From: Sediminivirga luteola
GTDB lineage: Bacteria > Actinomycetota > Actinomycetes > Actinomycetales > Brevibacteriaceae
Direction: 5' to 3'
Assembly: GCF_014639315.1 (NCBI RefSeq)
Contig: NZ_BMFY01000015.1
Location: 1-64,000 of the forward strand
DNA length: 64,000 nucleotides
Made by a program: the position numbers and the translations under genes. The notes beneath the pieces were generated by a model. It was not told the DNA's origin and ran no database searches. It was given only the letters and a program-made list of their open reading frames with translations. This document shows positions 56,919 through 59,152 of the stretch, piece by piece; positions within the stretch are counted from its first letter, which is position 1; each line of letters starts with the position of its first letter.

Positions 56919-57167
56919 TCAAGGCGAGACCGCGGCGACCCCCGGCAGGTCACCGAACCGTGCGGTGGGATCCCGGCTGAGTACGGTCCGGCCGGTCTGC
57001 GCGGCGTGCGCGGCGATGATCAGATCGTGTGCCCCGCGCTGTCTGCCTGAGCAGCGGGCGTGCGCGATCATGCGTGCGTGATGCGTGATGCGTGATGCGT
57101 GATGCGTGATGCGTGATGCGTGATGCGTGGCGGTGGCTGTGGTGTACTCCAGGACCTCGACCGCGTC
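56919..57167 (-). pseudogene. C-terminal fragment of a PIN-domain (VapC-type) toxin, disrupted by a heptanucleotide repeat
   Basis: Read on the minus strand, DAVEVLEYTTATATHH is followed by repeat-coded HASRITH units, then RMIAHARCSGRQRGAHDLII and AAHAAQTGRTVLSRD up to FGDLPGVAAV. The GAHDLIIAA and TVLSRD-x-FGDLPGV blocks are the C-terminal half of VapC-family PIN domains, including the late acidic residues. The N-terminal half with the first Asp is missing: homology starts right at the stop codon of the LmeA-like gene. No antitoxin is seen. The fragment is therefore probably a relic; the repeats split it. Confidence 0.6.
57070..57129. repeat. Heptanucleotide repeat ATGCGTG, seven tandem copies plus one separated
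   Basis: 57081-57129 is seven perfect copies of ATGCGTG. Another copy at 57070-57076 is separated from the array by CGTG. It lies within the PIN-domain remnant. Seven is not a multiple of three, so each copy gained or lost changes the reading frame. Confidence 0.95.
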
Positions 57168-57919: not shown

Positions 57920-58014
57920 TCGACTCCCGGCCCAGGGCGGGACGGCGCGGTTCCCGCTGAAGGCGACCCGATTGCTCCAGTGGTCGCGGGGCGTGCGCAG
58001 AACTTCGCGGCGCC

Positions 58015-58068
58015 CTGTCTCAGGTGCGCCCTGTCAGGTGCGCCCTGTCAGGGGCGCGCTGTCAGGCC
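58015..58068. repeat. 14-bp tandem repeats at the end of the MarR-GNAT gene
   Basis: Units CTGTCAGGTGCGCC (58031-58044), CTGTCAGGGGCGCG (58045-58058) and a partial CTGTCAGGCC (58059-58068), preceded by a variant with two extra bases at 58015-58030. The last unit contains the stop codon of the minus-strand MarR-GNAT gene, so the array has grown from the gene end outward. Confidence 0.8.
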
Positions 58069-58988
58069 AGGGGCTTCTCGTAGAAGTGAGTGGCGTGAGG
58101 GTTGTCGTTGTAGCGCTCGATCCTCCGGTAGCCGGCCCGCTCGTACAGGGCGATGGCCTCGGTGAGCGCGGCGTTCGTATCGAGCCGGGCGAGCCGGTAT
58201 CCCTGTGCGCGGGCGAGTCCCTCCAGGTGCTCCAGGAGCCTGCGGCCCATGCCTGCGCCGCGCCAGCCGGCGTCCACCCACATGCGCTTGATCTCTGCGG
58301 CCCCGTCGTGGTCCCGCCATCCTCCGCCGGCGACGGCGCTGCCGTCGCTGATCGCGAGGACGAAAGCCCCGGCTGGCGGGCGGAAGGCGTTCTCGTCCTG
58401 GGGCGTCGGCATCGGGGGAGCGTCGTGCTCGGGGAAGCGCGCATCGAGTTCGTCGAGGTACGTCCGCACCGCCGCTCGGGCCGCCGGTGAGGCCGGATCG
58501 ACGGTCTCCAGGCGTACCGTGGCGGCGCGGATCAACAGCTCGGCAGTGTCCAGGGCCTCTGCCAGCCTGGTGCGCTGACGGCCGGTCAGGGGCTCCAGGA
58601 GAACGCCGGCGCGCTCTTCGGAGCGGTTCTCCAGATCCTGCCAGGCGCGACGGCCGGCCGCGGTCAGGCGGATGCGTCGCCGTCGCCGGTCCTCAGAATC
58701 CGGTGCGAGGTCCAGCAGCCCGTCGGCCGTGAGCGCGCGGAGCAGCCGGCTCAGATACCCGGAGTCCAGGCCGAGGCGCTCACGGAGGTCCTGGGCCAGG
58801 ACCCCGTCTACGCCCGCCTCATCCTGTGCGGCTCCCTTCCCGCCCCGCTCCCGGCTGCCGATCTCGTGCAGGAGCCGGGCCTGCCCCAGCGGGCGGCCCG
58901 TCCCCAGGAAGGACTCGTCCAGGGCGCCGATGCGCTGGGTGTAGCTGAGATTGAACCGCCGCACGGCCGCGACGTGGGTATCTGTCAT
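58062..58988 (-). CDS. MarR-type regulator fused to a GNAT acetyltransferase
   Basis: A 308-residue two-domain protein. Residues ~1-150 are a MarR winged helix (LAQDLRERLGLDSGYLSRLL, DRRRRRIRLTAAGRRAWQ). Residues ~160-308 are a GNAT domain with the acetyl-CoA loop RGAGMGRRLLEHLEGLARAQ and ALYERAGYRRIERYNDNPHA. Such fusions are known, but their ligands and substrates are mostly unknown. A palindrome covers the start codon and -10, so it should repress itself. ATG 58988 is fixed by TAAAGT 7 nt upstream (leaderless). Confidence 0.88.
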   Translation of the reverse strand: MTDTHVAAVRRFNLSYTQRIGALDESFLGTGRPLGQARLLHEIGSRERGGKGAAQDEAGVDGVLAQDLRERLGLDSGYLSRLLRALTADGLLDLAPDSEDRRRRRIRLTAAGRRAWQDLENRSEERAGVLLEPLTGRQRTRLAEALDTAELLIRAATVRLETVDPASPAARAAVRTYLDELDARFPEHDAPPMPTPQDENAFRPPAGAFVLAISDGSAVAGGGWRDHDGAAEIKRMWVDAGWRGAGMGRRLLEHLEGLARAQGYRLARLDTNAALTEAIALYERAGYRRIERYNDNPHATHFYEKPLA

Positions 58989-59013
58989 ATATCTGACTTT
59001 AGTCAGGTATATG
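58986..59013. promoter_or_regulatory. Palindromic operator over the start and -10 of the MarR-GNAT gene
   Basis: CATATATCTGACT (58986-58998) and AGTCAGGTATATG (59001-59013) are inverted repeats with one mismatch around a 2-nt centre. It contains the minus-strand -10 TAAAGT (58996-59001) and the gene's start codon (58986-58988). The size and AT-rich nature fit a MarR dimer site. Confidence 0.72.
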
Positions 59014-59152
59014 GGTTTCGGCAATGCCTGGGCCTGCTGGGACCGCTGCGGCCGGAGTCCATGTTCTCCCTCGCGCGCCCGGGCCTGAACTGAACGTCCG
59101 CTGCCCGCCAGCTCCGGCGCCCATCCGCCGCCGGGCCCGGGCGACGGATGTA

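Follow-up and report, generated by a model that had tools for sequence, protein, structure and literature searches.

The published regulator AcuR represses its own leaderless gene from an operator that lies over the promoter. Its mRNA begins at the AUG, an inverted-repeat operator overlaps the promoter, repression is relieved by the co-inducer acrylate, and the same arrangement occurs upstream of similar genes in other bacteria. Self-repression, an mRNA starting at the start codon and an operator overlapping the promoter are also what we predict for the MarR–GNAT fusion gene described here, but AcuR belongs to the TetR family, and the enzymes of its operon are proteins distinct from the regulator. 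Similarly, NreA of Mesorhizobium (PMC12724321) belongs to a leaderless, self-controlled operon, nreAXY, with a dyad operator near the start codon, but NreA is a CsoR/RcnR-family protein that responds to nickel, has its operator in the -35/-10 spacer and controls efflux genes. Within the MarR family itself, CrtR of Corynebacterium glutamicum represses its own gene, possibly from one site in the genome, and its own transcript is reported to be leaderless, but this protein (PMC5401885) is without an enzyme domain, controls a neighbouring biosynthetic operon and has isoprenoid pyrophosphates as ligands. Thus leaderless self-repressors are already known, as are, by NCBI annotation only, HTH/GNAT fusions with the same domain order as the protein studied here; the literature searched, which leaves out most subscription papers, yielded no study of what a MarR–GNAT fusion does. 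An enzyme and a DNA-binding repressor also share one chain in BirA, which differs in controlling a separate biosynthetic operon and in sensing a reaction intermediate as co-repressor.

The fusion gene lies in a 64,000-nucleotide stretch of Sediminivirga luteola contig NZ_BMFY01000015.1, referred to below as the window. It occupies positions 58062–58988 on the minus strand, begins with ATG at 58988–58986 and encodes 308 amino acids, as supported by Pfam, by its relatives and by AlphaFold. A longer open reading frame starts with TTG at 59024, and ATG 58988 is the better start because the longer frame would begin in the -35 element. A preliminary description of this DNA had called the product a MarR–GNAT fusion, and both domains are indeed found above their Pfam gathering scores (MarR_2, 32.2 against 27; Acetyltransf_1, 60.9 against 20.7), with MarR models matching residues 1 to about 150 and GNAT models residues 155 or so to 308. 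AlphaFold folds the whole protein confidently into two domains (mean pLDDT 92.1, pTM 0.85), and no solved chain spanning both is present among the structural and profile matches listed. The 14-bp tandem repeat at window positions 58010–58066 (3.9 copies) extends into the last codons and the stop of the gene, and a perfect tandem array of the 7-mer TGCGTGA (7.9 copies) is located at 57075–57129.

Pfam score, profile and structure match all place the N-terminal part in the MarR family of winged-helix proteins. Its profile finds MarR chains (best E 1.3e-9), and a model of residues 1–156 alone (pLDDT 88) matches MepR (4ld5_A; Z 13.5, rmsd 4.5, 124 aligned) and E. coli MarR (3voe_A; Z 13.2, rmsd 2.9, 118 aligned). 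The two Z values do not separate these matches and come close to the range in which helical folds call for caution, but sequence profiles agree on MarR. In both models the recognition helix comprises residues 76–88 (58725–58763, minus strand) and begins at S76 of DSGYLSRLLR. The remaining part, residues 155 or so to 308 (58065–58526, minus strand), has the fold and the acetyl-CoA loop of the GNAT superfamily by Pfam, structure match and residues, and its best GNAT chain is 3lod (Z 20.5, rmsd 1.9, 141 aligned). E232, R243, T271, A278, Y282 and G286, which we take to be catalytic-type residues with the role that they have in GNATs, are invariant in 68 of 68 homologues, and G244 and G246 are each kept in 65 of the 68. 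The closest GNAT structures are of unknown or varied function, so no substrate can be named. Redox sensing through cysteine as in OhrR was considered and rejected: the window protein is without any cysteine, and the commonest cysteine column among the 68 homologues, residue 221, is in the GNAT domain.

Upstream of the coding sequence, the minus strand carries a -35-like TTGCCG (59024–59019; four of six consensus matches), 17 nucleotides, the -10 hexamer TAAAGT (59001–58996) and, after a further 7 nucleotides, the ATG, which is also the predicted leaderless transcription start. A consensus promoter scan missed this promoter because it demands 9 of 12 matches and the -35 supplies four of six. 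As had been proposed, a 13-bp inverted repeat with one mismatch overlaps both the TAAAGT and the ATG. The full repeat is 28 bp long (58986–59013), with arms that are 92% complementary and a spacer of 2 nucleotides. Repeats of comparable quality (13-nucleotide arms, at most one mismatch, spacer 0–4) occur at two places in the window, and dinucleotide shuffling of the intergenic stretch produces one in 7 of 2000 trials, so that the repeat is moderately unusual alone. The proposed operator length of 28 bp stood less well than the repeat itself: conservation across 44 homologues spans about 20 bp, and palindromic conservation is lacking in the outermost 4 bp of either side. The predicted operator is therefore better given as the 20-bp pseudo-palindrome T-N-Y-CTGAC-TANR-GTCAG-R-N-A at 58990–59009 on the minus strand, with the -10 hexamer inside it.

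These 44 sites come from a scan of genome contigs that gave 80 loci, of which 43 full-length relatives (L032–L074) were kept beside the window; L003 was dropped because it duplicates the genomic position of L036. In 41 of the 44 homologues, an exact copy of the 14-bp core CTGACTA-N2-GTCAG stands just 5′ of the start codon. One of the others has one mismatch (L074) and two have two mismatches (L038 and L067), the site of L067 being degenerate. Column information is concentrated in about 20 bp, and the outer bases of the window's 28-bp repeat are not shared. The arms also covary 8.5 bp from the centre, where 33 of 44 sites are complementary versus 17.0 in shuffles, a control that does not remove relatedness. 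The TA and the final T of the -10 are invariant in 44 of 44 sites, and the gap from the -10 to the start is 6–8 nucleotides in 42 of them, the exceptions being L066 (9 nucleotides) and L073 (3 nucleotides, with a second in-frame ATG at 6). By comparison, TANNNT stands at leaderless spacing before 95 of 4358 background ATGs. Hexamers resembling a -35 (at least four of six matches) are present in 17 of the 44 homologues versus 530 of 8800 background positions. This conservation shows the inverted-repeat core to be what we consider a real operator, and the 6–8-nucleotide spacing predicts, from geometry, that the MarR–GNAT mRNA is leaderless.

Homologues that had played no part in finding the operator were taken from profile searches of 299 genomes from the phylum to which the Candidimonas relative belongs and 396 from that of the window, which gave 24 further full-length class-I relatives; one of the two locus lists comprised 30 of 58 matches, and operators were examined in its 18 full-length class-I members besides the window. 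Eighteen of the 24 have exact CTGAC-N4-GTCAG arms, two (L184 and L192) have one mismatch and two more (L193 and L194) have the symmetric form TTGAC..GTCAA; standard arms were not found in the last two (L153 and L154). In mononucleotide shuffles, about 0.6% of regions reach at most one mismatch by chance. Strict TANNNT 6–8 nucleotides 5′ of an in-frame start is present in 18 of the 24, 17 of these with an operator, and the strict leaderless arrangement was not found in 7 of the 24. Among the 17 with both, 11 share the window's arrangement, with the -10 within the operator. Three of these relatives (L178, L179 and L188) have the -10 downstream of the operator, where the central TA is gone from its usual place and the arms are kept, and three (L185, L189 and L190) have it in the left flank, with the start codon within the operator centre. 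Since the arms are kept while the -10 slides, the protein appears to require CTGAC-N4-GTCAG, and the central TA would serve RNA polymerase.

Several other forms of the site were seen among these loci. In L153, the -10-like TAAGGT precedes the ATG without a standard operator, two direct copies of TTGAC-N4-GTAAA are located 5′ of the ATG, and residue 76 is Lys. L193 and L194, which share the genus code g29, have symmetric TTGACTAAAGTCAA operators and Ala at residue 76, and in L193 the operator is at more than the usual distance from the aligned start. The proteobacterial loci L155–L175 form a sister clade of MarR–GNAT fusions on one side of a branch with support 100. Many of its members carry TTGACT-N-AGTCAA, in which the half-sites are one base closer; this site is roughly 40–90 nucleotides 5′ of the aligned start, so that there appears to be a leader, and in one subgroup repeats resembling GTCAAATA..TATTTGAC come after TTGCCAAAGTCAA.

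We also asked where else in the genomes the operator occurs. In the window's own genome, the exact core has one place among the matches listed, the MarR–GNAT gene itself. For the homologues, the search took in 32 loci, short of the full 43, and 31 genomes, that of L035 being left out. The exact core was found in 29 of the 31 genomes, 26 of them with one strand-match and one (G080) with one palindromic site, and it is absent from two, both of which have a deviating own site. The remaining two genomes have multiple matches: G086 has two, the extra one at C4:17028, and G083 has three, the two extra sites being in a low-complexity repetitive coding stretch. The 20-bp pattern with at most one mismatch recovers the site at the own gene in 35 of 35 genomes, G081 with its degenerate own site being left out, and yields a single other copy in all, in G199 (C121:2971). 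With at most two mismatches, the limit beyond which more divergent targets would escape this search, there are 26 non-self strand-matches in the 35 genomes versus 38 for a reversed control, which gives no sign of additional targets beyond the control level. These results suggest that the operator is essentially unique to its own gene, and that the only detectable target of the regulator may be itself.

The preliminary description had also proposed looking for the operator before the aldo/keto reductase gene. A link to that gene found no backing: contig C15 is fully covered by the first 100 of 119 strand-matches, and no core within two mismatches is present at the promoter of that gene, nor was such a gene detected by tblastn in the 43 homologous loci. 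The suggestion of self-repression through the palindrome is strongly supported as a prediction by the conservation of the site and by its position over or beside the -10 and the start. It is further backed by the co-change of the site with the recognition helix, described below, and by relatives of the GNAT part. At 37 loci the match is confined to the GNAT part or extends little beyond it; these loci lack the exact core and show two sites with two mismatches (-709 and +15), and no MarR gene of the MarR–GNAT kind was found in their fetched flanks. The operator thus seems to go with the MarR part.

The recognition helix opens with residue 76. Of 68 class-I rows, 60 have Ser there, all of them with C:G at the outer arm position. 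Among the 15 rows with Ala or Pro at this residue (classes I and II together), 13 have T:A, L192 is mixed, and L054 (Ala with C:G) is the counter-example. Residue and base thus agree in 73 of 75 rows. This comparison includes 10 of the 21 class-II relatives, all with TTGACT-N-AGTCAA, rows with other sites being left out. Also left out were L165, with Pro at residue 76 and its single mismatch falling on the outer base under comparison, L067, in which the operator is degenerate and DREYLRR replaces DSGYLSR, and L153 and L154, both with Lys at residue 76 and no site to enter. On a quick tree, which carries a long-branch warning, residue 76 changed three times independently and the operator followed in 2.5 of 3 on average. 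Three independent changes are too few for significance, and we regard the relation as an apparent co-change of the recognition-helix residue with the outer operator base that stays below significance.

Among 58 genomes related to that of the window, 36 of them from the same family, a full-length relative is present in one, from another family of the order (G043). Thirteen plasmid matches cover 97–100% of the query at 38–50% identity, and 11 of them are annotated by NCBI as HTH/GNAT fusions. According to a codon-based gene call, the neighbours vary, and the downstream gene is convergent in 29 of the 44 loci. A conserved partner gene was sought and set aside, the clusters of open reading frames within ±3 kb being mostly confined to a genus and confused by overlapping frames. 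A defence system was likewise discarded, PADLOC having returned two weak HTH matches only. That the MarR–GNAT gene moves alone is a fair reading of its surroundings.

We consider it probable, at roughly 0.6, that the gene is a one-gene, self-controlled enzyme cassette, in which MarR-type self-repression would be relieved by a small molecule, most likely a substrate of the GNAT domain, and reset by feedback. The operator dedicated to this regulator includes the -10 and adjoins or overlaps the start codon of the gene, which is predicted to be leaderless. A MarR-type dimer would bind there and, to judge from the geometry, would sterically block RNA polymerase. A small molecule, by argument most likely an amine that the fused GNAT domain acetylates, would weaken DNA binding; the repressor-enzyme would then accumulate and acetylate the inducer, which by the same argument would restore repression. 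If the regulator acts on nothing but its own gene, regulation would serve to set the level of the conserved enzyme that it carries, and the likeliest inducer would therefore be the substrate of that enzyme, which the enzyme removes. By sequence comparison, the operator, its position, its near-uniqueness and the conserved enzyme residues support such a cassette, and a self-only repressor on an intact enzyme fits the earlier idea of one protein as both sensor and enzyme.

Many MarR proteins repress themselves without an enzyme, so the fusion need not mean that substrate and inducer are the same. In an ordinary self-repressor of this family, the inducer would bind in the MarR pocket, the GNAT domain would act on something unrelated, and self-repression would keep the level low. 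One account of MarR regulators (PMC5401885) describes palindromes of typically 16–20 bp that often overlap promoter elements, but this reading alone leaves unexplained both the lack of any other target in the 35 genomes and the conservation of the enzyme residues in 68 of 68 homologues, and we hold it to be rather unlikely. A sensor of acetyl-CoA or of self-acetylation, whose GNAT domain would either modify a lysine in the MarR part by acetylation or bind acetyl-CoA, and in this way tune DNA binding to metabolism, is improbable. Protein acetyltransferases do occur among the structural neighbours, namely HP0935 (8iyo_A; Z 17.9, 2.5 Å, 144 aligned) and RimI (2cnm_A; Z 16.6, 2.6 Å, 139 aligned), but the GNAT fold is common to enzymes of many functions, and if metabolism were being sensed one would expect other genes to be under control as well, of which none was found in the same 35 genomes.

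GNAT toxin systems, of which PacTA is one, typically include a DNA-binding partner that represses its own expression, and the single fused gene studied here could in principle be a toxin–antitoxin whose GNAT toxin is silenced by its own DNA-binding part. Against this stand the PADLOC result and the GNAT relatives whose fetched flanks are without a MarR gene of the MarR–GNAT kind, which are common here and would be unusual for a toxin; we give this reading very little credence. The poorest account of the data is that the repeat is a chance palindrome or an RNA hairpin, which deserves hardly any weight. The shuffles do produce comparable repeats, but conservation and covariation in 44 plus 22 homologues contradict it, CTGAC-N4-GTCAG stays while its position slides relative to the -10, and only the edge of the palindrome would be within a leaderless mRNA.

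The self-controlled cassette can also be read more widely, as a portable, single-gene, substrate-inducible enzyme with sensor, repressor and detoxifying acetyltransferase on one chain. Its one-site regulon would be its own -10 and start region, its inducer would be destroyed and the switch thereby reset, and it would be carried in unrelated neighbourhoods across actinobacteria, proteobacteria and one metagenome-assembled genome labelled Spirochaeta. We advance this wider reading tentatively, at slightly less than even odds. If true, a widely annotated family would amount to a self-contained module for inducible resistance or detoxification, and a single reporter together with a single protein would suffice to screen for inducer and substrate. 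Repressor specificity would gain a clean model in the near-unique operator and in the relation of residue 76 to the outer base. The MarR–GNAT family would also be a natural experiment, in which the operator shifts relative to the -10 and the start while repression is presumably kept.
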